The notes under the pieces were generated by a model. The model searched no databases. It had not been told where the DNA came from and saw nothing but the letters and a program-made list of their open reading frames with translations. Positions 7,081 through 29,671 of a stretch of 34,532 nucleotides of DNA are shown here, one piece after another (the stretch's first letter is position 1; each line of letters starts with the position of its first letter). The stretch is taken from positions 1 through 34,532 of the forward strand of contig JAIULZ010000031.1 in assembly GCA_022565805.1 (NCBI GenBank), given 5' to 3'. Origin of the DNA: Balneolales bacterium. GTDB taxonomy: Bacteria > Bacteroidota > Rhodothermia > Balneolales > Cyclonatronaceae. Position numbers and translations under genes: made by a program.

Positions 7081-10000
7081 ATGCGCAATAACTGGCTGTC
7101 CAAAAATCAACGATTTTATTCCTTAAGCAGTAAGTTTCAGCTGTTACTGCTTTTTTTCTCAGGCTTGTTGTGTTCTGCCGCTACTGCGCAGAATAATGCT
7201 GATTTAGCCGATGGTTTTCCCTTTTCGGTTAATTTTACACGAGGCGAAGATTACAGAGGTTCGCTCCAAACCTGGGGCATCATTAGGGATAACTACGGTA
7301 TTCTTCTGTTTGGAAACACAAATTACGGCGTTCAGCAGTTTGATGGCACCAACTGGCGAAATATTGCTACTCCAGCCAGCGCGCCACCCTTATCTTTTGC
7401 GAAAGGCACCGATGGCGAAATCTATGCCGGAACCTTCACCTCCTTTGGCCGGCTTATGCATGATGATGCAGGCCAATATCAATTTTATTCGCTTACGTAC
7501 CTGCTCTCCGATTCAGTAGCGGCTTCTATTCAGGATATTCATCATACCGTTTCCTTTGGTGAATCTGTTTTTTTTGTATCAGATGATGTAGCCTATCGGT
7601 TTAATGCGGCCGATTCGGTCATCACCCTGCTACCCGCAGAAGGGCGTTTTACGTCTGCCGTACAAACAAATACGGGCGTTTGGCTAAATGACTCTAAGCG
7701 CGGACTGGGCTACTTTTCGAACGAGGGCGAGACCTGGGGAAATAACATCCCTTTTGAACCGGAATCTCACCTGCTTTTGCTACTGAACGGGAAAGTTGCT
7801 GTATTAACCTCTGAAGCAGAATTATGGTTTAAATCCTATGACGAAAATCTGGCTAATGAAACCTGGGAGCTAAGAACCAGAATCCCGGGATTTGGCGGAG
7901 ATCGTTTCAGATCAATCAGGGTTGCTACTGGCCTTTTGGATGGTTCAATCGCAATTGCCGGTAGCGATGGCGTGTTTGTGTTTGATGCATTAGGTAAGCG
8001 CCGTTACCATTTTTCAGAAGAAAATATACTGACCGCCAGTTCGTCGCATAAAATCTATCAGGATGATGAGGGCATGCTTTGGGTGAGCGGGCAAAATGGG
8101 ATAACAGGAATTGAAATAGGTCGGCCTATGCGGGAATTACTGCCCGTTCAAGGCCTTCCGGCAAGCGGGATTAATACGGTAACCGAGTTTAATAAGTCTG
8201 TATTTATTGGAACCGGAAACGGTATTTATATTAGCGGATCCGATGGATTTGAACTCATTTTACCAGATGATATAATCTACGATTTTCACGAAACCCCGGC
8301 CGGGCTAATTATTGCAAGTAGTAACGGAATTTATTTGTATGATGAATTTGGAGCCCTTAGCACGATAAAGGAGGGAAGGCGCAGTAACAGGATTTTAAAA
8401 TCTGAATTTGATAAGGCTTTAATTTATGCTGCAATGTCAGACGGGCTATGGGCGGTTCAGAAGCTGGATGATGGCGGTTATAAAACGCATCGCTTATTCC
8501 CATTTGAGCACACCATTTTTACGATTCATGAAGATCAAACGGGTAATGTCTGGCTGGGAACAGGACGTAACGGTATCATCAGATTAAGCCTGAACCGAGA
8601 AGACGAAGATCTGCCGGAAGTTACTGCTCACCGCATTTTTACAAAGGCCGATGGCTTACCATCAGACGGCTTTAATTTTACTAAGCAGCTTCCCGGGGAT
8701 GTAGGATTCATTACAGAGGACGGCTTTTACCGTCTTTCGGATTACAGAAACAGCATCATAAAAGATATGCGGTTTGAATCTTTATTCGGCGATGCCGGTG
8801 GATTTCGGGTATGGCCCGTTACGCCCGGGCGCGATGGAAGCGCATGGGTTGCAAGTGCCGCGTCTAAAATTGGCAAAGCTACATATAACGAAGAAACCGG
8901 TCTCTTCGACTGGTACGAAAGTGAGTTTACCAGAATGGCGGTTTACAGAAGCGTAGAAACTATTCATGATGCTAAAAGCGGCCGTGTGTATTTCCAGTCT
9001 TTTAACAGGATCGGGTATTTTGATGAAACTATACCTCACCAACCAATGCCAGCATTCAGGTCGCATATCACACAAATTACGGCCTCCGATTCGCTTGTTT
9101 ACAGCGGGTGGGGTAAGAGTCAAAACCAGATAAGGCCAGCTTTAGACTATACAAGTAATAACCTTCGGTTTAACTTCGGGCTGATTTCATTTTTGCCCGC
9201 CTACCGAAACAGCTATCAGTATTTTCTGGAAGGCGCCGATACAGACTGGTCAGACTGGAATAATGAACTTTATGTCGATTATCGTAACCTGCGAGAGGGT
9301 ACTTATACATTTCATGTTCGCGGGCGGAATCTGTACTATGTACCATCCGAAACCGCATCTTTTACTTTCACCATATTGCCCCCGTGGTACCGCAGTTTAT
9401 GGGCATATTTTGGGTACGGATTATTTTTTATTGGAATAGTTCTGGGCTTTTCGAAATGGCGAACACAGCAGTTGATGGCCAGACAGGCCGATTTAGAGGC
9501 GCAGGTTATAGCGCGAACCGAAGAGGTTAGGACAAAAAGTGAACAGCTTGAAAAACTCGACAAAATAAAAAGCACATTTTTCTCCAACGTAAGCCATGAA
9601 TTTCGCACTCCACTAACGCTCATTAAAGGTCCGGCAGAAGATCTGCTTAGTAACGAAAACCTGAGCCTGTCTGAGAGAATAAGTAGTTACAAACGTATTC
9701 TCGAAAACTCCGACCGCTTGCTTTCTCTAATTAACCAGATTTTAGATCTGTCGAAAATGGAAAGCGGAACCTATATTTTACAACTTAGGCGAATAGATTT
9801 GAGACTGCTCATTTCGAAGGCTGCGGGCTGGTACCAAGGTTTAGCGACAAAAAAAGGACTTCATTTTACTATTCAATTACCGGATGAACCCTTTTGGATT
9901 TATGCCGATATCGAACAGGTAGAACTGCTGATTTCTAATCTGATTTCTAATGCCGTAAAATATACGGCTGACGGAAGCATCTCGGTTTCTTGCATTATCG

Positions 10001-11145
10001 AAGGGGAAACGGCTGTATTTGTGGTACGGGATACAGGTATTGGTATCCCACCGGCAGAACAGTCGCGCGTGTTCGATCGCTACTATCGGGCTAAAAGCGG
10101 CTTGCTGAGCACTTCAGGTTCCGGAATCGGACTCAATCTTGTAAAATATGTAGGAGAGCTGCATGGACTGGATTTAAATCTTGATTCAAAAGAAGGTTCC
10201 GGCACCGAGGTCAGCGTTCGATTTAAGAACGGGTTTGATCATATTACAGCTGAGTATATCACATTAGAAGACGATGACAGTATTCTGGCAGATCATCCAG
10301 AATTAGCTGGCAATCGAATGAAAACACAACCTTCAGAAACCGGGTTTTTGACTGATGAAGCCGAAGCTTTACCAGCATCAGAAGATATTCCATTGATTCT
10401 CATCGCCGACGACAACCATGATATACGGGCATTCATCCGGTCTGTGCTTGGTACTGATTATCGCTATGCTGAGTGTTCTGATGGTCATCAGCTGATAGCA
10501 AAAGCCAAAATAGAGCAGCCCGACCTCATACTTTCGGATGTGATGATGCCAGGACTTGATGGGTTTTCTGCCAGCCGAATCCTGAAATCCGATTCAGAGA
10601 CAGCGCACATCCCCATAATAATGATAACGGCAAAAGGCGGTGATCTGAATGAGCGAAGCGGACTCGAATCAGGAGCCAATGATTACATAACCAAACCATT
10701 CTCGCCTTCCATATTAAAAGCCCGCGTATCGGGGCAGCTTGCCCTGTTAATGCGTCTGCGAAAATTTTATAAAAAGCAGCTAAAAACCCAGAAGCTGTCT
10801 GAATCAGAAGAAGATGATGAGATATCGTCGGATTCTGATATACCAGACTGGAAAAATAAAGTAGATGCAGTCTTACACGACCCCGAATTTACGGTAGAAG
10901 AAATGGCAGCAGTACTATCGATGAGCCGGTCGACCCTACACCGATTCATCAAAAAAGAAACCGGAGTAAGCCCATTGGAATATATCCGCGATCAGCGCAT
11001 AGAGCGGGCATGCGAGCTATTAAGTAAAGAGAAAGGCTCTGTAAGTGAGATCGCCTATTCAGTTGGTTTCAGCAGCATCAACTATTTCAGCAGGGTATTT
11101 AAACAGTGCAAAGGGGTTTCACCTACGCAGTTTGTAGCGGGATGA
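7081..11145 (+). CDS. Hybrid two-component system (HTCS) sensor kinase/response regulator/AraC regulator
   Basis: A one-protein two-component system of 1354 aa, spanning the inner membrane. In order: signal peptide (~1-37); periplasmic propeller of Reg_prop repeats (~50-680; e.g. DQTGNVWLGTGRNGIIRL); a Y_Y_Y domain (~690-765, YFLEGADTDWSDW...LREGTYTFHVRGRN); a membrane helix (~772-790); HisKA with SHEFRTPL (H839); HATPase with N, G1 (DTGIGIP) and G2 (SGIGLNLV) boxes; receiver with ADD, phospho-acceptor D1153 (SDVMMPGLDGF) and K1205; and a C-terminal AraC helix-turn-helix (~1256-1354). All catalytic residues are present. HTCS proteins usually control polysaccharide utilisation loci, but no SusC/SusD or glycosidase gene is visible here. 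The neighbours are two giant T9SS proteins whose shared promoter region has tandem sites suited to an AraC dimer, so they are the likely targets (inference). Confidence 0.96.
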   Translation: MRNNWLSKNQRFYSLSSKFQLLLLFFSGLLCSAATAQNNADLADGFPFSVNFTRGEDYRGSLQTWGIIRDNYGILLFGNTNYGVQQFDGTNWRNIATPASAPPLSFAKGTDGEIYAGTFTSFGRLMHDDAGQYQFYSLTYLLSDSVAASIQDIHHTVSFGESVFFVSDDVAYRFNAADSVITLLPAEGRFTSAVQTNTGVWLNDSKRGLGYFSNEGETWGNNIPFEPESHLLLLLNGKVAVLTSEAELWFKSYDENLANETWELRTRIPGFGGDRFRSIRVATGLLDGSIAIAGSDGVFVFDALGKRRYHFSEENILTASSSHKIYQDDEGMLWVSGQNGITGIEIGRPMRELLPVQGLPASGINTVTEFNKSVFIGTGNGIYISGSDGFELILPDDIIYDFHETPAGLIIASSNGIYLYDEFGALSTIKEGRRSNRILKSEFDKALIYAAMSDGLWAVQKLDDGGYKTHRLFPFEHTIFTIHEDQTGNVWLGTGRNGIIRLSLNREDEDLPEVTAHRIFTKADGLPSDGFNFTKQLPGDVGFITEDGFYRLSDYRNSIIKDMRFESLFGDAGGFRVWPVTPGRDGSAWVASAASKIGKATYNEETGLFDWYESEFTRMAVYRSVETIHDAKSGRVYFQSFNRIGYFDETIPHQPMPAFRSHITQITASDSLVYSGWGKSQNQIRPALDYTSNNLRFNFGLISFLPAYRNSYQYFLEGADTDWSDWNNELYVDYRNLREGTYTFHVRGRNLYYVPSETASFTFTILPPWYRSLWAYFGYGLFFIGIVLGFSKWRTQQLMARQADLEAQVIARTEEVRTKSEQLEKLDKIKSTFFSNVSHEFRTPLTLIKGPAEDLLSNENLSLSERISSYKRILENSDRLLSLINQILDLSKMESGTYILQLRRIDLRLLISKAAGWYQGLATKKGLHFTIQLPDEPFWIYADIEQVELLISNLISNAVKYTADGSISVSCIIEGETAVFVVRDTGIGIPPAEQSRVFDRYYRAKSGLLSTSGSGIGLNLVKYVGELHGLDLNLDSKEGSGTEVSVRFKNGFDHITAEYITLEDDDSILADHPELAGNRMKTQPSETGFLTDEAEALPASEDIPLILIADDNHDIRAFIRSVLGTDYRYAECSDGHQLIAKAKIEQPDLILSDVMMPGLDGFSASRILKSDSETAHIPIIMITAKGGDLNERSGLESGANDYITKPFSPSILKARVSGQLALLMRLRKFYKKQLKTQKLSESEEDDEISSDSDIPDWKNKVDAVLHDPEFTVEEMAAVLSMSRSTLHRFIKKETGVSPLEYIRDQRIERACELLSKEKGSVSEIAYSVGFSSINYFSRVFKQCKGVSPTQFVAG

Positions 11146-11389: not shown

Positions 11390-14300
11390 TTATTTTACCA
11401 GCACCATTTTGCGGGTTAGTACATTCGTGCCTGCCTGAAGCCTGTAAATGTAAATTCCGCTTGCGAGCCGTTGTCCGTCGAACTGTGCTGTGTGATAGCC
11501 AGCCGTTTGTTCTCCGTTAACCAATGTCGCAACGCGCTGACCAAGCATATTAAATACATCCAAACGGATGTTGGTCGTTTCTGGCAATCCGTATTGAATT
11601 GTTGTAGTTGGGTTAAATGGATTGGGATAATTTTGGTTGAGGGTTACCTGACGCGGCAGCTCGGTTATTGGTTCGGTGGAAAGGAAAGATCCTACCGTAA
11701 GTCCTATAGTGAAACGAAGCTTGTCCATTTCGCTGCTTGGGCTGCTGTCGTCTTTTTGATTGTCATTCTGGGATTGCAGAAAGGGTAGTTCCAGCGGACG
11801 GGGCTCATTTTCACTTGCCGAGATAATTCCTCTACCCGAGGTTGTGCCTGCCGACACTCCAGCTTTTCTGGATTCATTTTTGTCGCCGTTTCCCTTCCCT
11901 TGTGTCTGTTCCTGTCTCTGATGTGTGAATATGTATGGCTGACCCGGCGTTAATACGATCGTTTCACCGGTTTGATGATCTGTTAATGTCATCGTTTCAT
12001 CTTCCCGGATATCAAAATCTGATACCTCAATTTGGTAAGTGCCGGTTTCTTTCACCAAGAGCTCCATTTCTAACTGATGCTCGAACCCTGACTCGCTATA
12101 GACCGATTGGTATACGGCAGGCCGGGCAGGTTCGGCTTCAAAGCCCCAAAGTAAACGTGGTGAGTTTAGGTTTACGGGAGGCAAAACCAGTTCTTCGCGA
12201 GCTTGCTCATCCTGGAGAAGATGTAGCACAGTTACGGCGCTTGAGTTTTCATCAGAAACCGAAAATACGATGGAATGAATCGTTTCCTCTTGTTCGGATT
12301 CATCATTACGGTACAGCTGACCATCGCCGTCTGATTGATGCTCCGGCTTAAATGTTATGGTTCCAGGTGTTCCGTCCATTTCTGCAGTTCGTGCCCAAAA
12401 TCCCTGAAACGGCGGTAAAATGCCATTATGGGATATAGTCCCGGGCAAACTTGGGATGTCGAATCCATAGTGCACGCGGTAGGCACCCTGCCCTTCGAAT
12501 GAATTTGCGTCATAGATAAATATAACCGGCAGCACATCGCTCAAACCGTTGGCTACAATACTGCGCCAATCCACGGGAAACGGATACGGATTGGAAATTA
12601 AATGCCAGCCCTGATTGCCATCATCCGGAGTAGCAACTGTGCTGGTTAGCTGAACAGGAATTTCACCTTCGGTTTGGAAACCATTAAACTGTACGCTTTG
12701 GGGCCATTCTTCGTCTTCATATACGTAAACAAGTATGGCTTTTCCAAGAGATGCCGTCGGATCATCACTTTCGTTGGCAATAAAGTCGCTTGCGTGCGCC
12801 GGTGCTTTCCACTCTCTTGTGGATTCATCATACCAGAATACGTTGGATGCACCATTTGCGCTATTTGATGCCCCAGGATATCCTTGTGTCCAGAGCCCGT
12901 CTAATAGAGTTGAATATCGTGAAAATAGCCCCGGTGCACCTATCATGCGCCAGCCGGCGTTTGGTCCGGCAATTTCGTAACTAAGGCTGGGCAGCTGTAT
13001 TACGCCCGGCTCGGTTTCAGACATATTATTTTGAAGATAAGGATATGAAGCAAGGCTGTCGCTGCGGATTGCCCATACATTTTCAAAATCCCAGCCAGCA
13101 TTGGTAAAGGTGTGTATATCCTTCATAAACGCGGTTGACAAACCTTGTTGACCGTCAGTATTTCCATCGGGAAGGCCACTGGTTTCAGCATCCCAGAACG
13201 ATTCAGAGACGTTCGCTTGGTTCAGCCCAATCAAGCCACCAGTCTCACTATTGCCAGATATCGAACCTGCGGCATAAGACTTTTCTAAAGTACCTGCTTC
13301 CAGATTATATCCTATAATGCCTCCAACGCGGTTGCCGCTGCTTGATACATTCCCCAAGGCATAGCTTCGGGAAATGATACCGGTGTTATAGCCGACCAAC
13401 CCCCCGGTGTAGTCGCCGGTGGCGGTAACGTTTCCAAGAGCATAAGATTGATCAATACTGTTGCCATTTGCCACAAAACCTGAAATGCCGCCTGTGCTGT
13501 TTCCGCCCTGAACCTGCACATTAGTCGAAGATTTCAAGATGGAACTTCCCTCAATCATTCTGCCTGTTATGCCACCCGAATCCCAGGTTGCAGTTGCGGT
13601 TACGCTGCCGGAAACATGCACATTTTCGACGATTACATTATTCAGCTCGCCCGCGAGGCCGCCTACATCCCGGCTGCCGGTTATTGTCACATTTGTAAGC
13701 CGAAGGTTTTTGATGGTTGCGTTAGATACTGCTCCGAGAAAGCCCATGTATCCTGTTTCCGGACGATGAATTCTCACTCCGGTTATTTCGTGATTGTTGC
13801 CGTCGAAGGTTCCCGTGAAGCGATTCGAACCCGTTCCTAAAGGTTCCCAACCGGCTCCATCATTCCAGAATTCGCCATCGGCCTCTCTTGTAGCGCTACT
13901 GAGGTCAATATCTTCGGATAGAATGAAATAGGCTTCGCGGTCGAAGCGTACCCGATCAAGGTCTGCCAAACTGGTAATTTGCCATGGATTTTCTTCTATA
14001 CCGCCTCCTGCCATCAGTTTAGTAGTGAAGCTGCGCGACTCGCTCCAAAGCATGGGTAAAAGGCCGTCAGCTCGTTCGAATATCCCGCGTACACGCCAAT
14101 GGTATGATGAGAAATACTCCAATCCAAGAACTTCTTCAATAGCAGTAGCTGCCGGGAGTGTTGTATCGGCAACAAGAGTGGTAAAATTGCTGTCAGTGGC
14201 TATTTCAAGCTGATAAAGGCTGGCAAAGTCGGTTTCGGACCATCCAAAGTTTTGGCTCAGCTCTGCTCCGGACAAATTCTGCTCTGGAGTAGTGAGGGAC

Positions 14301-17300
14301 GGCCCGGATCCTAAGGTATTTTGGGCACCAAAAATGCCGTCTGACTGCCGCCAAATCACATCCACGAAACCATTACGGGTAAGATGACCAAATGCGATTT
14401 GCTGAGCTGACTGCGTCTCTGCAATCTGCTGAGGCGGGAAGTAAGTGCTATCAGCGGGGTTGTAAATAAAATAGAAAAGACTGCTTTCTCCGGCGGCAAC
14501 CACGTCCAAACGACCATTACCGCTTAAATCTGCGGTTCCGAATGTTTGTATGACTGTAGAAGCTTCGGTTCCTTCGAGCGTTCCGCCCGGTGTGAAAGCT
14601 GCAAAACCGTCGTTTGTAAACCATTTTAGGTGACCACTTCCGGCTTCGCGCAGCAATAAATCGGGATACCGGTTTCCTGTGAGGTCAGCGGCGCTAAGCT
14701 TTTCAGCATTATTCAGACCGGTAAGCAGAACTTGACCGCCACTCAGCGGCGAGTCGCCTCCGTTGTTTTCAATCCAGCCGATGGAACTGATTCCAGCAAA
14801 GACCAGGTCGTTACGACCGTCGAGATTTAAATCTGAAACAAGAACTTTACGGATGTTTTCACTCAGTGGTGCCGTAAACGTTTGCTCTGTAAACAATTGG
14901 GTGAGTTCCTGTTGCTGAAGCCATATCGCGCTGTTACCGGTGGCAGCTGTTACTACAAAGTCTGTGAGGCCGTTTCCTGTAAGGTCTCCGGCGGTGAAGG
15001 CGCCGAATTCAGCTATCCCCGCTGATATTTCATTGGGCCGCGAATAGGCGTCCTGCTCCTGCACGCCCGGCAGATAGTTCAGGTTTTCTATCCACTTAAG
15101 GCGCGTATTGTTATCGCTTAAAAAGATGATGTCCGGGAATTGACTGTTCTGTACATCTCTGAAAAGCACCTCGCTACTCACCCCGGTGGCTAACGTAATA
15201 TCGGCCCCGTCGCGCTGTATGAGCAATTCTCCGCTGGAGGTAACGATGATTCTGTCGTAGGTGCCGTTTTTGTTGAGATCAATCCAGTAAAGCTGATCAG
15301 CCTCCGTGGTGGAAAGCTGTTCAGGATTGTCAAATAAACCGCCACTGCTGGTTATGGTTACCACTTCCGGAAGAACCAATACGGTATTATTTCTTTGAAT
15401 TCTTACAAAGTAAACACCGGGTGGAGTAGACGATGAAATAGTGTTGTACAAAGTTCCGGATACGAGGCTGTCCACCGGCACGGAAACTCCGCCGGAAGAA
15501 GTAGCTGAGGTATTCAGCTCGACGGAAATATTAGCCGTGCTGTTGCCCATGTTAGACACCGGCACGGGCAGTACATCGCCGGGGCTAAACATGGTTTGTG
15601 CCGGCGACTGCAATCGCTGATTATCGAATCTGTTTTGATAGACCTGAATTACGCCCTCGCTTGTGAGTACGGCAATATCCATATTCGGCGATAACGTGTG
15701 ATTATAGGGGTACACGGATGAAAATGCAGGTTGAGAACCTCCTGTTTTATGAATGTGAATAGCCTCCCCGAAGAGCCTCTCATTCGGTGCAGTGTTGCCG
15801 GTATTGGGAATCCAAACCAGCTTCTGTCCGGTATGATTGGCGCTACTGCGGGATACGACCGCGACATCATCGTAGCCGTTCCCGGAGAAGTCTGCCACGG
15901 CTACGTAGGGTGTACTCCAGGCTTCATCATAAATTACCCGGCCGTCAGAAAAACTGCCGTTACCAAGGTTTTCGTACCAGATGACTTCGTTTCGCCCAGT
16001 AACCGCCGCAACAATGTCTAATTTTCCGTTTCGGTTGATGTCTGCCGCCACAATTTTAGATACGCCGTCGGCCTGATTACTAATTATGTGCTTTGTCCAA
16101 TTATCAGAATTATCCTGAGGATTCTCAAACCAGGCGATGGTATTATCTCCGGTAATTGCGGCCGCGATATCATTACTCCCATTTCCGTTAATATCGAAGG
16201 CTTCTACGGAAAGAACCCCGGTGGCGGTGCCGCTAACGAGTTGTCTGTCAGGTGAAACTACGCCTAAAGTATTATCAAAAATAGCGATATCATCCCGCTC
16301 TGCATCGGCAAAGACCACATCAAGAGACCCGGAGTCGTTCATATCTGCCAGCTTTATATCCCGAATACTGCCCACATCATCGGTTATCAGCGTTGTTAAA
16401 AAAGGGTCCTGAGCAAACTGATTGTTACCCTGTCTACTGTTTGGGTCATCCAGATAGTAAAGAGCATCCCCGCCTGCAACCACATTAACCGCACCGCTGC
16501 GGTTAAGATCGCCCAGCGCAAACGTGTTGGTACTGTTGGGCATGCCGTTTGGAACTCTAGTGAAAGCATCGCTGGTAGACGCAAACCTGAACCCTGAAGT
16601 GCTGGTCTGTAAATTTATTGTACCGTCTGGATTCCTTATCTCTTGAGGCCCTGAGCTTAACCCGCTGTTAAAAAGGGCTGGCGTATTTACAAATGCACCA
16701 TGCATATACCCCAGCTCAATTCGGGAGTTAAACGGGGAGGGGGTCGTATAATCCAGGTTAGCGGCCTCAATCGGAGTGGATCTGAACATTCCGCCGGCTT
16801 GGACTATGTTTATATATTCGTAGTGTCTTCTCAGCGGCACATTACTCCCGGCGCTCTGGTTAAATAAAACAACGGTGTAAGTTCCGTTCGGCAGGTTTGG
16901 GCTAATGTAAATATAGCCGGGACCCGCGCTGTCTACCGGAACAAAGTTGGATGAAGCCAAATCTATTCTCCTTAGCTCAACCTGATTGTCTGTAAAGCCG
17001 TTATGTTCAATCCTTATTGGTTGGTTCGCGGGCGTGGTATTAGGTAAAATATTATGTATTACGGGCAGCGGTTCTCTGTATCGGTAGACTCTGGCTCTGC
17101 CCTTGAAGTTTACGCCCGGGTTTGATTCTTCCGGGCTTGTTACCTTCAGCAAGTTTTCATCCCTCCAGCTTATACTTGCTGCGAAACCGCTTGCTCCCGG
17201 CGGGGGCTGAATAATGCCCGAGTTGCTCCATCCGGTCATGGTCGAGTATTTGTAAAAAAATACTCGACCCTCGTTACCAGGTGCAGCTACGGCTAGCAGG

Positions 17301-18466
17301 TCTCCATTTTGATTGAATGTGACCTTATTTCCCAAGCGGTCACCGGTATCAATACCGGTAAACCCATCTTCTGAAAGGATGAAGCTATCTGCTTCTTTTT
17401 TATATAAAAGCACCTGCCCTCTGTCAGAGGCCCCTTTTGGAGCACCGACCGCAAGTATTTCTCCGTCTGGCGAAATATCTATGGAATGCCCAAACTGTGA
17501 ACCCGCTGCCGTTCCGTTTAGCTGCTGCAATAAGGTTCCGTCCCATCCATAAATAAACACTGCCCCGGTTCCATTATTCAAGTTGGGTGCAGAAATAAAT
17601 ACATACTGTCCATCATTGCTTATCTTTACCTGCGAGCCAAAACGATCTCCGGTTTCCGGGCCTGTCAGGGTTCGTACAAGGTTTTGCCGGGTTGCGGGCT
17701 GATCCGTAATTGATCCGCTGTACAAATAAACCCGGCCCGGGGCCGCCACCGGGTGAGCCCCAATTAACTCCAGATCTTCAGGGATATAATAAGTCGCGCC
17801 TACCGCTATTCGGGTGCCGCCCGGTGTAATGTCGAGTGCTGCGCCATAGGCATCGTTTATTTCAGGAGAGGTGAGTCTTCTTTGTCGCACATCTCCGGGG
17901 CCTTGCGGGAAAAAGAAATATACGCTGTTTGGTATCGTCCTTTCAAAATTTTCATCTAACATAGCCAGAGTGGTTACAAGAGCAAGGTCCGATACTTCTG
18001 AATATGCAATAGAATAGCCGAGATGCTCTGTACCCACATAAAACCCATGCTCAGAAAAATCATAAGTAGGTACCTGATAAAAATTTAGCGTACGCACGTA
18101 ACTGCGGTCATACGTTCCGATATAGGAGTGAACAAGAAATATTTCGACAGAACCTGATGAACCCGAGCTTTGAATGTTAACATCAACGGTTTTTGTCTGA
18201 TACATTCTAAAGTCTTCGCCATGAGCCATGTTGTATCCGAACCGTGCGTTGGGACCGGGTATAAAGTTGTTTTCTACGGGAGCCCCCCTTTCATCGAATT
18301 CGGCTCCGATACTGATTTGCCCGACGGCCGAATCTGTAAAAAGAAAGCCGGCGCCTGCTCCAAGAAGCAACAGAAGTAATAAATGACGTGCAGTGTAGAA
18401 ATGCCTGGAAAGGTGAGCAGCAAAATTACTGAATATTTCGGACGAAGGAGTAGAAAGAGATTTCAT
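11390..18466 (-). CDS. Giant T9SS-secreted FG-GAP/VCBS/GLUG-repeat protein
   Basis: A 2358-aa exported protein with a long signal peptide (hydrophobic core ~28-44, cleavage after SAVGQ). Order of parts: FG-GAP-like blades (~195-470; FGHSIDISPDGEILAVGAPKG type); an Ig/IPT-like strand domain (~467-550); VCBS repeats in two blocks (~640-945 and ~1055-1380; DINRNGKLDIVAAVTG pattern); a fibronectin III-like domain (~1390-1485); GLUG-type beta repeats (~1490-1820; DVGGLAG, STGGISG, YTGGLVGYN); a ~440-aa pre-sorting module beginning at N1836 (GWRMIGAPG, GWHLISNPYPFPVDW); and a C-terminal T9SS sorting domain (NYPNPFNPTT...MVLVK). Cell-surface or released; ligand unknown, adhesin-like. No catalytic motif is seen. 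It shares the C-terminal ~520 aa with the divergent giant gene and has tandem 21-bp sites ~102 bp upstream. Confidence 0.93.
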   Translation of the reverse strand: MKSLSTPSSEIFSNFAAHLSRHFYTARHLLLLLLLGAGAGFLFTDSAVGQISIGAEFDERGAPVENNFIPGPNARFGYNMAHGEDFRMYQTKTVDVNIQSSGSSGSVEIFLVHSYIGTYDRSYVRTLNFYQVPTYDFSEHGFYVGTEHLGYSIAYSEVSDLALVTTLAMLDENFERTIPNSVYFFFPQGPGDVRQRRLTSPEINDAYGAALDITPGGTRIAVGATYYIPEDLELIGAHPVAAPGRVYLYSGSITDQPATRQNLVRTLTGPETGDRFGSQVKISNDGQYVFISAPNLNNGTGAVFIYGWDGTLLQQLNGTAAGSQFGHSIDISPDGEILAVGAPKGASDRGQVLLYKKEADSFILSEDGFTGIDTGDRLGNKVTFNQNGDLLAVAAPGNEGRVFFYKYSTMTGWSNSGIIQPPPGASGFAASISWRDENLLKVTSPEESNPGVNFKGRARVYRYREPLPVIHNILPNTTPANQPIRIEHNGFTDNQVELRRIDLASSNFVPVDSAGPGYIYISPNLPNGTYTVVLFNQSAGSNVPLRRHYEYINIVQAGGMFRSTPIEAANLDYTTPSPFNSRIELGYMHGAFVNTPALFNSGLSSGPQEIRNPDGTINLQTSTSGFRFASTSDAFTRVPNGMPNSTNTFALGDLNRSGAVNVVAGGDALYYLDDPNSRQGNNQFAQDPFLTTLITDDVGSIRDIKLADMNDSGSLDVVFADAERDDIAIFDNTLGVVSPDRQLVSGTATGVLSVEAFDINGNGSNDIAAAITGDNTIAWFENPQDNSDNWTKHIISNQADGVSKIVAADINRNGKLDIVAAVTGRNEVIWYENLGNGSFSDGRVIYDEAWSTPYVAVADFSGNGYDDVAVVSRSSANHTGQKLVWIPNTGNTAPNERLFGEAIHIHKTGGSQPAFSSVYPYNHTLSPNMDIAVLTSEGVIQVYQNRFDNQRLQSPAQTMFSPGDVLPVPVSNMGNSTANISVELNTSATSSGGVSVPVDSLVSGTLYNTISSSTPPGVYFVRIQRNNTVLVLPEVVTITSSGGLFDNPEQLSTTEADQLYWIDLNKNGTYDRIIVTSSGELLIQRDGADITLATGVSSEVLFRDVQNSQFPDIIFLSDNNTRLKWIENLNYLPGVQEQDAYSRPNEISAGIAEFGAFTAGDLTGNGLTDFVVTAATGNSAIWLQQQELTQLFTEQTFTAPLSENIRKVLVSDLNLDGRNDLVFAGISSIGWIENNGGDSPLSGGQVLLTGLNNAEKLSAADLTGNRYPDLLLREAGSGHLKWFTNDGFAAFTPGGTLEGTEASTVIQTFGTADLSGNGRLDVVAAGESSLFYFIYNPADSTYFPPQQIAETQSAQQIAFGHLTRNGFVDVIWRQSDGIFGAQNTLGSGPSLTTPEQNLSGAELSQNFGWSETDFASLYQLEIATDSNFTTLVADTTLPAATAIEEVLGLEYFSSYHWRVRGIFERADGLLPMLWSESRSFTTKLMAGGGIEENPWQITSLADLDRVRFDREAYFILSEDIDLSSATREADGEFWNDGAGWEPLGTGSNRFTGTFDGNNHEITGVRIHRPETGYMGFLGAVSNATIKNLRLTNVTITGSRDVGGLAGELNNVIVENVHVSGSVTATATWDSGGITGRMIEGSSILKSSTNVQVQGGNSTGGISGFVANGNSIDQSYALGNVTATGDYTGGLVGYNTGIISRSYALGNVSSSGNRVGGIIGYNLEAGTLEKSYAAGSISGNSETGGLIGLNQANVSESFWDAETSGLPDGNTDGQQGLSTAFMKDIHTFTNAGWDFENVWAIRSDSLASYPYLQNNMSETEPGVIQLPSLSYEIAGPNAGWRMIGAPGLFSRYSTLLDGLWTQGYPGASNSANGASNVFWYDESTREWKAPAHASDFIANESDDPTASLGKAILVYVYEDEEWPQSVQFNGFQTEGEIPVQLTSTVATPDDGNQGWHLISNPYPFPVDWRSIVANGLSDVLPVIFIYDANSFEGQGAYRVHYGFDIPSLPGTISHNGILPPFQGFWARTAEMDGTPGTITFKPEHQSDGDGQLYRNDESEQEETIHSIVFSVSDENSSAVTVLHLLQDEQAREELVLPPVNLNSPRLLWGFEAEPARPAVYQSVYSESGFEHQLEMELLVKETGTYQIEVSDFDIREDETMTLTDHQTGETIVLTPGQPYIFTHQRQEQTQGKGNGDKNESRKAGVSAGTTSGRGIISASENEPRPLELPFLQSQNDNQKDDSSPSSEMDKLRFTIGLTVGSFLSTEPITELPRQVTLNQNYPNPFNPTTTIQYGLPETTNIRLDVFNMLGQRVATLVNGEQTAGYHTAQFDGQRLASGIYIYRLQAGTNVLTRKMVLVK

Positions 18467-18568
18467 ATTGTGTCGTGTTTTTTCAGATTTTGCTTTGTAT
18501 GAAGATGTGCAAAGCTTTCGATTAGCGTATTTAGAATTTATAAGGTAAGCAAACGGGAAGCAGCCAAG

Positions 18569-18610
18569 TTAGTACGCATCGGTCAAACTTTAGTACAGAT
18601 CGGTCAGGTT
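18569..18610 (-). promoter_or_regulatory. Tandem 21-bp operator pair for the leftward giant gene
   Basis: Two abutting 21-bp units on the minus strand. The distal unit (18590-18610) has core CCTGACCGATCTGTACTAA and the proximal unit (18569-18589) has core TTTGACCGATGCGTACTAA. The pair ends 102 bp before the ATG at 18466. It matches the consensus of the pair serving the opposite gene. A 21-bp period is two helical turns, so a dimer would bind one face of the DNA, as AraC-family proteins do. Binding by the neighbouring HTCS is inferred. Confidence 0.75.
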
Positions 18611-18770
18611 GGTGTTCACATAGAAGGCTTTTTGAACATTTATAGAAGCAAACTGATATTCAGGAAAAATGTCTGAATTTATGGTTTTTAAAATGGGGGA
18701 TGGCATATCAAGTTCGGGTGACATGGGGCATGATTCCCTTTTTTTATCCAGTTTAAGGTCACCATCCCTG

Positions 18771-18812
18771 ATTTTGACAAATTCGTGCTATACTTTGAAC
18801 GATTTGTGCTAA
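18771..18812 (+). promoter_or_regulatory. Tandem 21-bp operator pair for the rightward giant gene
   Basis: Two abutting 21-bp units on the plus strand: distal 18771-18791 (core TTTGACAAATTCGTGCTAT) and proximal 18792-18812 (core TTTGAACGATTTGTGCTAA). The pair ends 96 bp before the ATG at 18909. Across all four copies the bases A1, T5, G6, A7, A11, T12, G15, T16, C18, T19 and A20 are invariant, position 17 is a purine, and position 14 a pyrimidine. Confidence 0.75.
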
Positions 18813-18908
18813 CGGCTGGCCTGTCTCAAGAGTTAATTTATTACGTGGATTCAGCGACACTACTGTAATCCATAGTTATGACTTCGTATAAATCCCCGAA
18901 TAAATTCT

Positions 18909-21900
18909 ATGAGACAAAAAACTAATCCCATTGCCATTTTTTGTGTGTCGTTGCTTTTTTTGTGCACCCTTGTGTTTGGGCAAACGGCAATAGCTCAGCA
19001 AATTATTTATGTTAAGGCAGATGCCACCGGTGCCAATAACGGCACTTCCTGGCAGAATGCCTTCACCCAGCTGCAGCCTGCCATTCATGCAGCGGGTACC
19101 ACCGATCAGATTTGGGTAGCGGCCGGTACCTATTACCCAACCGAGCAGCGTATTGCAGGTGTAAACCGCAGCCGCTCATTTGTGATACCCGACTATAAAG
19201 ACGGAGTGCACATTTACGGGGGATTTGCCGGCACTGAAACACAGCTGTCGCAACGAACCAATCCGGGCGCCAATATAAGCCGGCTGTCGGGGGATGTAGA
19301 CCAAAACGATAAACCTCAAAATATTTATGAGGATAGTGACAGAACCCAAGGGCATCCAGCTCCATTTACGTTACAAGCCACGGATCACATTGTATTATCA
19401 GCGTTTTTTAACACTAATTTTGGCGGATTCATCCAAATATCAGATAATGCAAATGTGTATAGTGTATTGTCGTTGGGTGGTGGTATTACCCGCGCTACAG
19501 TATTAGACGGACTTACCATTTCCGGTGGTGTTGCGGCAGAACAAGAGTTAGCACTATACATTGAAGATGAATTTTTTTATTCCGGAGGTGGTCTGAATTG
19601 CAATGGATGTAGCACAACTTTTCGAAATGTTCGTTTCGAAGGTAATTATTCTATGCAATATGGTGGTGGGGTTTCAATTTATAATAATGGCGATCCGCTA
19701 TTTATAAATAGCGTTTTTTATGGGAATGGAGTCGGAGGAGATATACCCAACAACAGTCAACCTGTTAATACCAGTGCAATGCAAATAAGAGTGGAGTTGC
19801 TATTTGAAGGTATGCCCATTGATATTTTTGATCTTGGTGGCACCGGTGGCGCAATTCATGTAGCAAGTAGCGCCAATACTGAAATCATTAACAGTACATT
19901 TTTTGGTAATCTGTCTTCTTTTCCCGGAAGGCAAATCAAAGTTGAAGGGAATTTCACATTCAGGAATAGCATTACGTGGGGTAGCTTTGGTTTAGGAATT
20001 GATCCGGGTGATGACATAATTGCTAATACTGGTAGTATTTTTAACAGCGTGCTGCAGACGGGTTGCCCGACAAATGTGGCTTGCGCAGAGATTTCGAGTT
20101 CCGATCCCCTGCTAAACGATAGTCTCATCATTACCAGTGCCTCCAGCTCGGCGGTTGGAAGAGGCGATAACTCATTTCTGCCGGCAGATACCGATGATCT
20201 TAACGGGAATGGCGACGCCGAAGAACCCTTGCCTTTCGATGCAGCCGGTAATCCGCGTATTCAAGGAATAGTTGTGGATGCAGGGGCCTTCGAAAGTCCC
20301 TTCGAATTTGCATTTAATCACTCCTATTCTGCGGTTTCGCCGGGTCAGCAACAGCGGTTGACCTATTTTGGAGCAGGCTCTACTACGTCTGTAACCCTCA
20401 ACAATACGCCTGTTAATGATTTTACCATAGAAAACGCTAATCAAGTAAGGCTTACCATTCCGGAAGGTGCAGAAAGCGGACTCTATCGTGTTGTAAATAA
20501 TCTTGGAGAATTCGAAAGTTCTGAGGAAATCATCATTACTGATGCCAATGGCGGCGGTCGTGCTTTGGCGGCTAATGGCAGCGGGTTTGTAGAAGTGCCC
20601 GGAGACCCGGCATTCCGGAGTAACGCGATCAGCATTTCCTTTTGGATGCGCGTTACCGATCCTAACGCCTTTAGCGGGGATATCATTAGAAAAGGACAAG
20701 GAGAGCGTACAACGTTTAACCTCAGGGCTAACCCAAACACTGAAAGTGATCAGCTTACATTTCAGCTGGGTCTGCTAAATTTAAATAACCCCAATAATCC
20801 ACCCGTCATTACAGACCGTTTAAGCTCCGGCAGCATAAATGTGATGTCTGGCTCGTGGCATCATGTTGTTACTACTTATAATGATTTTGGTAATGGTAGT
20901 CAAACCATCAAATTGTCTGTTGACGGAATCATCCTCAGCAGGAGTGTCAGCAATAGTGCTATAGCAACCTACTTTGATCCAAATGAGTACTCTTCAATTC
21001 GTATCGGAAATGGGAACGGCTTTGAAATTGATAATCTGATGTACTGGAACCGGGAATTAAGTACCGGTGAAATGGCGGATTTGCGCCTGCGACACCTAAG
21101 CTTGAGCCCCTTTGACCCTGAAGCAAACGGGCTGATTGCCAGCTACCGCTTCGATTCCGACAGTGCCGACACCGTTTATGATTATGCGGGAAGGAAAAAC
21201 GGAGCCATAGTGGGCGGTATAGCGCGTTCGGCCTTCAGCGGGGCACCGGTTGCAACAACCATGGGTAGCACCGCGGGAACATCCGGAGCAACAATTAGCT
21301 TATCAAATCAGGATTATGAGGCATTGATGCTCGGGAATCCTGCTGAAGAACTTCTTGCCGGAAACTTGCCGGGAGAGTCTTATGCATTTGATGTATCAGA
21401 AGCAGACAGCCGCCGCAGTCCGGTGTCCTGGTTTGTAGTGCGAAATTCAAACGAACCTACACAGGCTGAAATCAGTTACGCCAACATCCCCGCTTTAGAC
21501 AATTCGCAATCACTCAAGGTTATTTACAGACCCATTTCGGGTAAACCCTGGGAATTGGCACCCGGAAACTGGGTTCATGATCCCGCGCAGCGCAGTTTTT
21601 CGCTTGAATCAGCAAGAGGTCTGTTGCCGGGTGAATACAGCATAACCAATGCTCCAATTGTTTTGCTATCTGCTTCAGTTAGCCCGCTTGCCCAAAACGC
21701 AGCCCCGGGCGAAAATGTGCAATTTACCGTAACGCTCAGAAATACCGGTGCGGATGGCACAACCTTGAATACCACGGCGGGAATCAACGTTCAGGGGCTG
21801 GAAAACATCTCTTTTTCGGGCGGGTCTGTGAGCGGAACGACCTGGACGGTTCCCGAACTCGAAGCCGGGGGATCGGCAACCCTCTTAATTAACGGAACCC

Positions 21901-24900
21901 GCGCATCAGGTTCCGATAATGCCACCCTAACAGCCTCAGTAAGCAATCCCTTTTACAGTGTGTTAAACGGCGGTCAGACCGCGCAGGTTTTTGATCCGGT
22001 GTACGAAACAGGTCAGCATATAAACATCACCGATATCTACTTATCTGCTCAGCCGAGCCCGGATGTGATGGGTATGCTGGATTCGGACTTCACTATGGAG
22101 GGCTGGATAAAACGGACAGATGAGCGTCCAGATAACCCCATTTTGTCCCAGTTCAATATTCAGAACACCAATACGCTGCGTATTGGCTTAATTAACGCAA
22201 GGCCAATTCTGGAGTTTAACGGCAGTCGTTTAACGGCTGTAGGCTTCCTACAGGCTGGTATATGGTATCATCTTGCATTTACGTTTGACAAGATCACCGG
22301 AGAGCGTAAAATATTTATTAATGGAGTGCAGCAGGCATCTGATGTTACCGACGCCGGAGCGATTTTGTTAAACTCTCCCCTGATTATTGGCGGCTGGAAC
22401 TCCGAAAATAACCGCACTCAGTTTGATGGATTTAAAGGCGGTATGCATAATCTCCGGATATGGAATGCATCGCTTACCCGGGAGGATATTCTGAAGCGAA
22501 TGCATCAGCATATTCCGGCAAATGATCCTCTGTATGGGTCGCTAACGGCCGATTTTAGATTTACGGAGGGACAAGGTGCATTGGCCTTCGATTACGCAGG
22601 TGGGAATCTGTTTACTAGCCCGCAAAACGATATCTGGAACGCGCGAGGCGGGGTGCTTTTTGGAACCGAAAGTGCCGTTGCGGCGGTGGATGTTCCGGCA
22701 TCTGCAGGTCTGTCCGGTGCTTCAATAAGCGCGTCGGGCGTTACAGAACGGGAAGTCATTCTGCATGTTTCCGGCCGGCCCGATGGCCCCGATCGTACTC
22801 CCGATGATATTGGCGAATCGTACGATGTTCAATTAAGTGAACTTTCACTCCCGCGCCCTAACGTAACCTGGAGCTTAAAAAGTACGCTCGGAGATCTGCC
22901 ACAAGCCGATCTGGAACTTGCCTACGGCGCGCTTAGCCTTGCCGATGAACTACCCGAAAGACTGTACGTTATCCACCGTACCGGTCCCGATCAAGACTGG
23001 GGCCTGGATCCTTCGTGGACGCATCACCCGGATACAAAAACTTTTACCCGCTCTGGTTCGATACAAATGGGCGAGTACAGCATCATAACAGTGCCAACAG
23101 CCAATTTAAGTTTGGATATGGAACTCATTAGCATTGGTTCCCCAAATGAGGACAGTTTTGAACTCCGGTTTACGGCTACCAATACAGGTATAGATACCCC
23201 AACCGAAGCTACAGTAACCACGATTGTCAGCAGTCTTTCGGCCTTCACCGGTCTGGAAGCAGACGGGTCCGGCTTCGATCCGGAAAACCTGTCTTGGACT
23301 ATTAGCGAGCTGGCGCCCGGAGTTACCAAAATCCTGATAATATCGGGCCTTATAAATGATGACGCCCTTATTTCTCTCCAGTCTGTGATTACAGGATCGG
23401 GTGTGCTAAATCTTGCTTCTGAGGAGCAAATAAGCAGTAGCGCGGTCATTTCAAAAGCTCCCTACGGCTCAGGATCCGCCTTACGTTTAATTAACGAACT
23501 TAACACAGGCGCCACTGGAAATCAGCTGGGATTGGTAAACAGCAGCTTCACTGTAGAAGCCTGGATTAATCCGTCAGTCATCTCGGGTGATCAAGCCATT
23601 TTAGGACAATCGATTCCGGAAAATCCGAATTCCCGTGCCCTTCATTTGATTCTCAGAAACGGCAAAATACTGATGGGCTTTTTTACGGATGACCTTGTTG
23701 GGCAGACCGATGTGCCGGCCAACACATGGTCGCACATTGCTTTTACCTATGATGTGGAAACCAATGCCCGCGTAGTGTACCTGAACGGAGTTGCCGATGG
23801 TTCAAATAATGCTACCGGGCCGTTTTTGGGTGAAGGAAACGTGTATATCGGGAAATGGACCGATACAGCTTTTCTGAACGGCCGCATAGACGAACTCCGC
23901 ATCTGGAACAGCGCGCGAACTGAGGAGGAAATCTTCCAGAACAAGCACCGCACGATTTCCGTGCTGGATGCCGATTTTCAAAACCTCAATGCCTATTATC
24001 GCTTTGATGAAGGCACAGGCACGGTAGCTCACGACATTCGCAATGGATTTAACGCTGATTTTGCCGGAAATTCGGTTTGGGAAACCAGTACGCTGCAGCT
24101 TGGCCGCGAGGCGCAGCTTGTCAGCGAAAACGGAACGGGCAGCGCGGGGGACTCTGGCAGTACCATAGAAATGGAGTCGCTTACGGGCGGTTCGGCAACG
24201 GTGTACACCTACGGAAACATCAACGCAATAAGGACATCGGAAAGCCCGGGCGAAGATTTCGACGCCCTCACCGATCTAGAAATACAGTCGCGAAGCGCCA
24301 TAGTGTGGGGCATCATCGCCGAAGAAAACCCGGATATGCAGGTTGACTTACGCATAGACTACAGCAGCCTGCAGGACACTTCACAAATCAATCAGTCGCC
24401 GGGTTTAATTTTTCGCACCAATGCCGGGGCCGAATGGCAGCTTTTGCCCGACAGCGCCTGGGTGCGTAATGTGTCGGCGAAAACGATAAGCTATAGCGGT
24501 CCGCTGCTTGCCGGAGAATACTCGCTGGCCATTGTGCCCTTTCTTTCCACCACCTACACCGGAAATACGGCCGGCTGGCGAATGGTAGGAAACCCCGGTA
24601 GCTTCGCGCGATACAGCGATGTGCTTTCCCAGGTCTGGACGCAGGGCTTTCCGGGCTCCAGCCAGAGCGAAACCGGAGTTTCCAATGTTTATTTTTATGA
24701 TGAGCCATCCCGCTCGTGGCAGCCGCCCGCCAATGCCATTAATATCTTTGGAACGGGCGTAAGCCAGGGCGCGCAGTCGGTTGGGAAATCCTCCATCGTG
24801 TACTTTTTTGAGGATGAGTTCCCGATCGAGATACGGCATACGGGCATCAAAAACTCGGGTGAAGTGGAGCTGGTTCTAAACGCTACGGTGCAGGACCCCG

Positions 24901-26111
24901 ATGATGGCGCACAGGGCTGGCATCTTGTATCAAATCCGTATCCATTTGCCATAGACTGGACAAAAGTGGTTGCGACTGGACTGGATGAGGTAGCCCCGCC
25001 CATTTTTATTTTTGATGCATCTACCTTTAATGGATCCGGCGGCTACCGCGTGCACTATGGCTTTAATGTGCCCGGTCTGCCCGGAGATATCCAGCATGAT
25101 GGAATTCTGCCCCCGTTTCAGGCATTCTTCATTCGAACGGCAAACATAGACGGCACGCCCGGCACGCTAACGTTCAAGCCGGAACATGCGTCCCAGAATG
25201 GAGGCGGTCAGCTGTACCGTCCGGCCCGAACGAACAGGCAAATAGATGAGCAGAGCACCCCACCCATTTCCGGGCTGGTATTTACGGTTGAGGACGAATC
25301 CGGTGTTTTTTCTGCCAGCAGTCTGCTTAAAAAACTGGCTGAGTCCGAAGAGAAAGCCCTGGAGCTGCCGCAGCCGTTTCCTTTAACCGCACCCGGCATT
25401 ACGTTTGGGATTCAGGGCGAAACATCCGCTGTTCTGGCCATGAAATCCATAGCCATGGAAGACGGCCAGAGTTATGAAATCCCGCTCACCTTCGAGGCCA
25501 GCTCGTCAGGATCGTATGTGCTCCGAATACCCAACCTTGAAGACTGGAACTCCGGCATCGTGCACCTTACGGATCATCAAACGGGCCGGGTAACGATGCT
25601 GGAAGCCGGAAGTGAATATATTTTTGAGCACGTCGCGGCGGATCCGGAACCGGATGCGCATCCTATGGGAAGAAAGGGCAGAAGCCTCGACGCCGTTCAG
25701 GCCGAGAGCGCATCGCTAAGGAAACCCGCCATACCCGGATTGAATGGCATGCATGGGGCAAAAGGACCAGAGAAAAGTATGGAGCCCCGGTTTACCATTA
25801 TGCTGAGCTACCAGTATTTGAGCCACGAAACGGGACCTGAACTACCGCGGGAAATGGAGCTCAGCCAGAACTACCCCAATCCATTTAATCCCACCACGGC
25901 AATTCGCTACGGCCTGCCCGAAGACGGTCTGGTGCAGCTGGAGGTGTTCAATATTCTGGGTCAGCGCGTGGCGGTACTCGCCAGCGGTCAGCAAACGGCC
26001 GGCTATCATCAGGTTCAGTTCGATGCGCGAAGACTGGCAAGCGGCGTGTATATCTACCGCCTCAGAAGCGGAGACACGCTGCTTACCCGCAAAATGATGT
26101 TGTTAAAATAA
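18909..26111 (+). CDS. Giant T9SS-secreted beta-helix/LamG-repeat protein
   Basis: A 2400-aa exported protein with a signal peptide (~1-30, cleavage near AIAQ). The N-terminal part (~30-465) is a parallel beta-helix of the 'choice-of-anchor Q' type: IYVKADATGANNGTSWQNAF, then GGGLNC, GGGVSIYNNG and INSTFFGN rungs. Then comes a ~480-aa composite unit used three times: a LamG/concanavalin-like domain (starting ~549, 1035, 1520; e.g. FTVEAWINP...WSHIAFTYD), a ~150-aa unnamed beta module ending GEYS(I/L) (near 909, 1388, 1868), and a DUF11-like domain absent from the third unit. A pre-sorting module follows from N1886 (GWRMVGNPG, GWHLVSNPYPFAIDW), then a T9SS sorting domain (NYPNPFNPTT...MMLLK). 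LamG domains usually bind glycans or proteins; no catalytic site is seen. It is probably co-regulated with the divergent giant gene. Confidence 0.93.
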   Translation: MRQKTNPIAIFCVSLLFLCTLVFGQTAIAQQIIYVKADATGANNGTSWQNAFTQLQPAIHAAGTTDQIWVAAGTYYPTEQRIAGVNRSRSFVIPDYKDGVHIYGGFAGTETQLSQRTNPGANISRLSGDVDQNDKPQNIYEDSDRTQGHPAPFTLQATDHIVLSAFFNTNFGGFIQISDNANVYSVLSLGGGITRATVLDGLTISGGVAAEQELALYIEDEFFYSGGGLNCNGCSTTFRNVRFEGNYSMQYGGGVSIYNNGDPLFINSVFYGNGVGGDIPNNSQPVNTSAMQIRVELLFEGMPIDIFDLGGTGGAIHVASSANTEIINSTFFGNLSSFPGRQIKVEGNFTFRNSITWGSFGLGIDPGDDIIANTGSIFNSVLQTGCPTNVACAEISSSDPLLNDSLIITSASSSAVGRGDNSFLPADTDDLNGNGDAEEPLPFDAAGNPRIQGIVVDAGAFESPFEFAFNHSYSAVSPGQQQRLTYFGAGSTTSVTLNNTPVNDFTIENANQVRLTIPEGAESGLYRVVNNLGEFESSEEIIITDANGGGRALAANGSGFVEVPGDPAFRSNAISISFWMRVTDPNAFSGDIIRKGQGERTTFNLRANPNTESDQLTFQLGLLNLNNPNNPPVITDRLSSGSINVMSGSWHHVVTTYNDFGNGSQTIKLSVDGIILSRSVSNSAIATYFDPNEYSSIRIGNGNGFEIDNLMYWNRELSTGEMADLRLRHLSLSPFDPEANGLIASYRFDSDSADTVYDYAGRKNGAIVGGIARSAFSGAPVATTMGSTAGTSGATISLSNQDYEALMLGNPAEELLAGNLPGESYAFDVSEADSRRSPVSWFVVRNSNEPTQAEISYANIPALDNSQSLKVIYRPISGKPWELAPGNWVHDPAQRSFSLESARGLLPGEYSITNAPIVLLSASVSPLAQNAAPGENVQFTVTLRNTGADGTTLNTTAGINVQGLENISFSGGSVSGTTWTVPELEAGGSATLLINGTRASGSDNATLTASVSNPFYSVLNGGQTAQVFDPVYETGQHINITDIYLSAQPSPDVMGMLDSDFTMEGWIKRTDERPDNPILSQFNIQNTNTLRIGLINARPILEFNGSRLTAVGFLQAGIWYHLAFTFDKITGERKIFINGVQQASDVTDAGAILLNSPLIIGGWNSENNRTQFDGFKGGMHNLRIWNASLTREDILKRMHQHIPANDPLYGSLTADFRFTEGQGALAFDYAGGNLFTSPQNDIWNARGGVLFGTESAVAAVDVPASAGLSGASISASGVTEREVILHVSGRPDGPDRTPDDIGESYDVQLSELSLPRPNVTWSLKSTLGDLPQADLELAYGALSLADELPERLYVIHRTGPDQDWGLDPSWTHHPDTKTFTRSGSIQMGEYSIITVPTANLSLDMELISIGSPNEDSFELRFTATNTGIDTPTEATVTTIVSSLSAFTGLEADGSGFDPENLSWTISELAPGVTKILIISGLINDDALISLQSVITGSGVLNLASEEQISSSAVISKAPYGSGSALRLINELNTGATGNQLGLVNSSFTVEAWINPSVISGDQAILGQSIPENPNSRALHLILRNGKILMGFFTDDLVGQTDVPANTWSHIAFTYDVETNARVVYLNGVADGSNNATGPFLGEGNVYIGKWTDTAFLNGRIDELRIWNSARTEEEIFQNKHRTISVLDADFQNLNAYYRFDEGTGTVAHDIRNGFNADFAGNSVWETSTLQLGREAQLVSENGTGSAGDSGSTIEMESLTGGSATVYTYGNINAIRTSESPGEDFDALTDLEIQSRSAIVWGIIAEENPDMQVDLRIDYSSLQDTSQINQSPGLIFRTNAGAEWQLLPDSAWVRNVSAKTISYSGPLLAGEYSLAIVPFLSTTYTGNTAGWRMVGNPGSFARYSDVLSQVWTQGFPGSSQSETGVSNVYFYDEPSRSWQPPANAINIFGTGVSQGAQSVGKSSIVYFFEDEFPIEIRHTGIKNSGEVELVLNATVQDPDDGAQGWHLVSNPYPFAIDWTKVVATGLDEVAPPIFIFDASTFNGSGGYRVHYGFNVPGLPGDIQHDGILPPFQAFFIRTANIDGTPGTLTFKPEHASQNGGGQLYRPARTNRQIDEQSTPPISGLVFTVEDESGVFSASSLLKKLAESEEKALELPQPFPLTAPGITFGIQGETSAVLAMKSIAMEDGQSYEIPLTFEASSSGSYVLRIPNLEDWNSGIVHLTDHQTGRVTMLEAGSEYIFEHVAADPEPDAHPMGRKGRSLDAVQAESASLRKPAIPGLNGMHGAKGPEKSMEPRFTIMLSYQYLSHETGPELPREMELSQNYPNPFNPTTAIRYGLPEDGLVQLEVFNILGQRVAVLASGQQTAGYHQVQFDARRLASGVYIYRLRSGDTLLTRKMMLLK

Positions 26112-29258: not shown

Positions 29259-29364
29259 TTAAGAGCCCTGTAGGGAACTGGTAATATTCGAAATCACTTC
29301 CTGAAATTTAGCAAAGTCTATTGGTTTAATAAGGTAATTATGCTCTAAACCAAGTAATGCAGCC
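29259..29364 (-). pseudogene. Out-of-frame C-terminal end of the response regulator
   Basis: In the -1 frame the sequence continues KAALLGLEHNYLIKPIDF and ends in NITSSLQGS before a stop at 29259-29261. It supplies the conserved Lys-Pro (K116-P117 in the joined protein) and final helix of a receiver domain. Joined to the upstream frame at the A6 run, the protein is 137 aa, a normal length for single-domain receivers. Confidence 0.7.
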
Positions 29365-29671
29365 TTTTTTGGTCATCTTCGCTGAGAGAACTGGTTAAGA
29401 TAAACACTTTTGAGACATCGTACCCATAGAGCCGGGAGAAAGCATCATAAAAGTCCCAGCCATCCCATACGGGCATATTTAGATCCAGGAAAATGATTCC
29501 AGGCAAAACGCCCGATTCTTGTACTCTTTTCAACATTTCGTTAAAGGCCAGTTTGCCATTAGAGAATGAAGTTGTTTTATACCCGGCGCCCAGCTTCTGT
29601 ACAAATTTATTGAGCAGAAAAATCTGAATCGGGTCATCATCTATGAAGCATATTTCATTTATTTTTGCCAT
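29345..29671 (-). CDS. Single-domain response regulator (receiver), truncated by a frameshift
   Basis: A 108-aa frame with receiver-domain features: acidic pocket FIDDDP (D11-D13), phospho-acceptor D63 in IIFLDLNMPVWDGWDFY and T93 in ILTSS. It stops after DQKRLHYLV, before the conserved KP and last helix. The cause is a run of six A (29365-29370, plus-strand T6): the -1 frame continues with the correct end of the domain to 29259. A seventh A would restore a 137-aa protein; so would ribosomal or polymerase slippage on AAA-AAG. It begins directly at the stop codon of the upstream histidine kinase (TAA then ATG, no gap), so the two are translationally coupled and D63 is presumably phosphorylated by that kinase. 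There is no output domain. Confidence 0.85.
   Translation of the reverse strand: MAKINEICFIDDDPIQIFLLNKFVQKLGAGYKTTSFSNGKLAFNEMLKRVQESGVLPGIIFLDLNMPVWDGWDFYDAFSRLYGYDVSKVFILTSSLSEDDQKRLHYLV

Follow-up and report, generated by a model that had tools for sequence, protein, structure and literature searches.

Tandem 21-bp repeats as putative operators of an adjacent HTCS between two divergent giant T9SS-tail genes of a Balneolales bacterium

The class II arrangement of AraC, known from araBAD I1-I2, pairs direct half-sites at a distance of 21 bp and has the proximal half-site at the -35/-33 element. A comparable spacing was reported by Ravcheev et al. 2013 for Bacteroides thetaiotaomicron, whose predicted HTCS operators are direct repeats averaging 21 bp and located before HTCS-adjacent genes (PMC3878776). 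Bacteroidota sigma-A promoters carry TAnnTTTG at -7 (PMC7366714, PMC9723704), and in Flavobacterium this box occupies -12 to -5 (PMC9723704). Here we analyze a window of 34,532 nt, the whole of the stretch under study, from the Balneolales bacterium assembly GCA_022565805.1 (contig JAIULZ010000031.1), in which repeats of this kind separate two divergent giant genes close to an HTCS gene. Very probably, the four repeat units constitute two class II operators of this adjacent HTCS, which would activate both divergent giant T9SS genes together.

Repeat units between the divergent genes

Gene A (11390..18466, minus strand) encodes a 2358 aa protein with FG-GAP and GLUG repeats and a Por_Secre_tail, and gene B (18909..26111, plus strand) encodes 2400 aa with three LamG-type domains, DUF11 and a Por_Secre_tail. 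Both are putative T9SS cargo: the Por_Secre_tail is C-terminal in each, the T9SS protein SprA is encoded in the source genome (1473 bits), and Por_Secre_tail has 115 matches there, a picture consistent with T9SS export of both products. The proposed regulator (7081..11145, plus strand) combines within one chain a sensor made of a propeller and Y_Y_Y with HisKA, HATPase_c, a receiver and an AraC-type HTH_18, as is characteristic of an HTCS, and its AraC-type domain is the only one among the ten window proteins scanned. No SusC/SusD pair and no glycoside hydrolases, by which a polysaccharide-utilisation locus would be recognized, were found beside the HTCS among these ten proteins. A search with the HTCS protein against named genomes returned distant relatives only. 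Elsewhere, the minus strand of the window encodes a kinase of 1483 aa (29345-34123) that combines several PAS domains with a periplasmic domain of the phosphonate-binding type; a single receiver domain follows it directly.

The 442-bp gap between genes A and B contains two tandem pairs of units, each unit with a 19-bp core and the units of a pair spaced by exactly 21 bp. On the gene A side, the proximal half-site (18569..18587, minus strand, TTTGACCGATGCGTACTAA; assigned by pattern match and ten-site alignment) and the distal half-site (18590..18608, minus strand, CCTGACCGATCTGTACTAA), 21 bp from the proximal unit, read gene-ward as CCTGACCGATCTGTACTAA-AG-TTTGACCGATGCGTACTAA from 18608 to 18569 on the minus strand. 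The gene B operator is composed of a distal half-site at 18773..18791 (plus strand, TTTGACAAATTCGTGCTAT) and a proximal one at 18794..18812 (plus strand, TTTGAACGATTTGTGCTAA), and its gene-ward reading from 18773 to 18812 is TTTGACAAATTCGTGCTAT-AC-TTTGAACGATTTGTGCTAA. The original prediction of paired, abutting 21-bp units agrees with the offset of exactly 21 bp in both pairs, and its distances to the start codons, 102 bp for gene A and 96 bp for gene B, are reproduced when the count starts where the proximal 19-bp core ends. Its figure of 11 invariant positions out of 21 has to be corrected to 10 (positions 3, 4, 5, 9, 10, 13, 14, 16, 17 and 18).

The motif had also been described as absent from the rest of the window, and indeed the four units are the sole window matches at up to 3 mismatches (0.21 expected; a count of four was reached in 0 of 100 shuffles). 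Genome-wide at the same threshold, the matches with 0-2 mismatches are three of the four units alone, the other 19 matches all lying at 3 mismatches, and a reversed-pattern control in the source genome gives 21 matches in total. These and all other genome scans were pattern searches rather than weight-matrix scans. Tandem-pattern searches of the source genome returned no tandem pair beyond the two in the window. Autoregulation of the HTCS was considered and rejected, its upstream region being without a site in the window search at up to 3 mismatches.

Promoter geometry and direction of control

Each operator is followed by a predicted -7 box of the type defined in PMC7366714 and PMC9723704, starting 22 nt past the operator core: TACCTTAT at 18540..18547 (minus strand) for gene A and TAATTTAT at 18834..18841 (plus strand) for gene B. 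This distance is common to all ten sites that we collected from the genus (next section). Counted from the last base of the core, TAnnnT begins at exactly 22 nt in 10/10 sites, nine of them having the TAnnTT form; at any other offset its count stays below 3, and the maximum over all offsets in 5000 shuffles was 5. The DNA downstream of the operators played no part in finding the ten sites. When the proximal unit and the box are joined into one pattern and run at up to one mismatch against the six genomes of the genus, exactly those ten sites are returned. Neither this unit-plus-box pattern at up to one mismatch nor the tandem pattern yielded more targets in the source genome, and the six unit-plus-box matches found there at 2 mismatches equal the control (six) and were not taken as targets.

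Direct half-sites with an exact 21-bp lag in ten sites, together with a fixed distance from proximal unit to box in 10/10, are the features of an AraC-type class II arrangement. Since the Flavobacterium box lies at -12 to -5, transcription is predicted to start near 18535 (minus strand) and 18846 (plus strand), so that the proximal unit would span about -52 to -34 and the 5′ leaders would measure 60-70 nt. Because the -7-type box starts 22 nt after the operator, the proximal unit comes to lie against the -33 position; no clear -33 TTTG box was seen in the promoters behind the operators. The constant 22 nt to the predicted box marks the repeats as probable operators in a position suited to activation.

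In the mechanism that we propose, each operator would act as a direct repeat of two 19-bp half-sites whose 21-bp spacing corresponds to two helical turns, so that the AraC-type domains of an HTCS dimer could bind next to each other on the same face of the helix. Ending ~34 bp before the predicted transcription start, the proximal half-site would substitute for the -33 box, and the -7 box (TAnnTT) would start 22 nt past it. Once the sensor receives its signal, the bound HTCS would recruit RNA polymerase at both promoters, and both divergent giant T9SS surface proteins would be made together.

A proximal unit in the place of the -33 box could also be imagined to serve repression, the HTCS covering the -33 region and blocking RNA polymerase until a signal arrives. 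HTCSs are generally described as activators, which counts against such a role, and the constant 22-nt box distance and the lack of a clear -33 TTTG box fit activator dependence better, given that a repressor tolerates variable placement. The receiver of this HTCS (window 10417-10500) leaves some room for repression: it has AHIP where most HTCSs have S/CHIP, a variant common to its closest orthologues, and in Bacteroides deviations from S/CHIP are linked to a (predicted) loss of the inhibitory REC-DBD contact (PMC11253607). The AHIP variant group may bind without phosphorylation and may repress (PMC11253607). Owing to this variant, binding of the HTCS may not depend on signal and may be constitutive or repressing; overall, we regard repression as unlikely. 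Binding by this HTCS, and activation rather than repression, is what we infer from the combined evidence.

Occurrence in congeners and target genes

A strict tandem pattern built from the window and run in 60 related genomes matched the window itself and one site in the congener G002, whose HTCS orthologue is encoded on the same contig as that site. The loci of the closest HTCS orthologues, in the congeners G002, G004 and G005 (44-62% identity to the window HTCS), have a tandem 21-bp site in five out of five cases (L056, L057, L059, L060 and L061). A relaxed tandem pattern, written after inspection of those five loci, was run in 129 genomes of the order and found ten sites at 0-2 mismatches, all in G002, G004, G005 and the source genome (G000); as all close positives belong to one genus, these ten sites are not fully independent. 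In the two congeners G001 and G003, which have no HTCS orthologue, the relaxed tandem pattern detected no operator. Outside the genus, four scattered matches at 3 mismatches are near the control level (two reversed-pattern matches) and were not counted. The original prediction that tandem matches would accompany orthologues of this HTCS in relatives is thus borne out, strong matches being restricted to congeners that have one.

This co-occurrence bears on whether another AraC-type regulator, encoded elsewhere in the genome, binds the operators instead of the neighbouring HTCS. Sequence alone cannot name the binder, AraC-type domains are common in these genomes, and a non-HTCS AraC-type protein is encoded near one of the G004 loci (L057 13745-15670). 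Such a regulator is nonetheless improbable, slightly more so than repression: within the genus the operator tracks this HTCS clade (four genomes with both, two with neither), the sites lie mostly beside the HTCS, and other HTCS clades adjoin repeats of their own.

The neighbouring HTCS as regulator also finds support in the genes behind the sites, which were expected to be T9SS cargo genes and in the relatives are for the most part giants with a T9SS tail that adjoin the HTCS gene, two homologues of gene B among them. Both homologues belong to G005 (52-53% identity) and have an operator of their own, located 94 bp ahead of the homologous start codon. The two G005 copies (L109 234-7641 and L061 1084-8342) are 99% identical to one another over 3.7 kb, and an identical frame change interrupts both close to the C-terminal tail. 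The third G005 site precedes a gene for a 151-aa protein that is followed by a LamG giant. In G004, one operator lies ahead of a 2018-codon giant gene (LamG, GLUG, T9SS tail) and another ahead of a giant gene of at least 2028 codons that reaches the contig end.

Observations that count against reading the repeats as HTCS operators include the AHIP receiver discussed above, the first gene behind a G002 operator and a G004 site without target. At the G002 locus (L056 11941-13473) the first gene encodes an apolipoprotein N-acyltransferase and a GLUG/T9SS-tail gene comes next; behind another G002 operator, a second, similar gene start lies at a contig end (L085 1-242). The target-less G004 site (L086, contig G004:C95, 4857-4896, minus strand) has all parts of the operator, its -7 box at +22, and an ATG at 93 nt, a distance usual for these sites. 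The reading frame has 18 codons only and runs into an apparent intrinsic terminator, which suggests either that a target was deleted and this is its remnant, or that a small RNA is made here.

The repeats, their spacing, the promoter geometry, the restriction to HTCS-bearing genomes and the target class can all be read directly from the DNA. Since the two genes of the window have the same paired operator at a fixed promoter distance, and this operator is restricted to HTCS-bearing relatives, one sensor most likely turns on both. Congener co-occurrence, target class and the 22-nt box distance likewise favour the claim made at the outset that a single regulator, probably the adjacent HTCS, serves both genes.

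Other HTCS clades and comparison with known systems

Direct repeats of at least 14/19 identity were searched in 80 gaps near 25 HTCS genes of the order. A lag of 21 occurs in 13 gaps and is the only enriched one, the 17 other lags tested having a mean of 0.4; orthologous loci are included, so these gap counts are not fully independent. Gaps farther from HTCS genes were rejected as a clean negative control, because lag-21 repeats exist there too (at least 13/19 identity: 9 vs 17), and some of those belong to the type of site described here, at a distance of more than three genes. In three other HTCS clades the operator letters are unrelated (..GGGGAG, ..AGTCCAA and ..GGCAA), and a TA box is kept 21-22 nt downstream of the conserved block. 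In clade V (L074-L077) lag-21 repeats are present, and no constant box distance was found. In a second clade, with a member in the source genome too (G000:C67), the 21-bp tandem operator is a different one, TTTTGACCnAATnGGGGAG, and the box distance is the same (L081 5794; L082 5274 and 10227; L083 1152).

These clades also bear on whether the repeats of the window are a by-product of duplication, promoter copies that came along with the common C-terminal region and have no present function. Genes A and B do resemble each other over their final ~540 aa (44% identical). In their upstream regions, by eye, nothing but operators and -7 boxes looks alike; core letters, 21-bp lag and +22 box are kept across species, by which this explanation is largely refuted; and other HTCS clades have the same layout with different letters. 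We therefore consider a duplication by-product highly improbable and keep to functional operators of the adjacent HTCS.

A T9SS-tail gene is directly adjacent to 10 of the 25 HTCS genes and within two genes of 15 of them, in a sample that was chosen by similarity to P0001 and the Y_Y_Y family and is no census; several further HTCS genes adjoin giant genes whose tail falls outside the stretch examined. In Balneolales, HTCSs and giant T9SS surface proteins may make up self-contained cassettes of sensor plus cargo, each regulator clade having its own 21-bp repeat in one geometry, with the HTCSs acting as private switches for surface proteins rather than for glycan uptake; on this generalization we find the case evenly balanced. 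The proposed control would tie a sensor family known mainly from glycan uptake to the expression of giant secreted surface proteins. Promoters under HTCS control could be located in uncultured Balneolales, and possibly in other Bacteroidota, by the simple rule of a 21-bp direct repeat with TAnnTT 21-22 nt later. As several HTCS clades within one genus have diverged operators, the operator set may also be used to study DNA recognition by AraC-type domains.

A literature search combining HTCS, type IX secretion and AraC, of incomplete coverage, found no paper. What looks new is the class of target, the proposed joint control of a divergent pair of giants, and an operator-to-box distance that stays constant from clade to clade. 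With AraC compared, the proposed regulator here is a membrane HTCS with a C-terminal AraC-type domain, and the promoter is of the -33/-7 type of Bacteroidota. Like the sigma-A promoters of that phylum, those described here have a TAnnTT box where the -12 to -5 element is expected; unlike them, they deviate in the last box letters (TACCTTAT, TAATTTAT) and have no evident -33 box, as expected if they are activator-dependent. The kind of operator is already known, since the HTCS repeats of B. thetaiotaomicron are of about 21 bp: the two-box direct repeat is common to both, with letters that vary by HTCS clade (PMC3878776). The fixed distance from operator to -7 box is a feature of the sites described here that we did not meet in the parts of PMC3878776 available to us. 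The targets differ as well, being SusC/SusD polysaccharide-utilisation genes in B. thetaiotaomicron and giant LamG/GLUG/FG-GAP proteins with a T9SS tail here.
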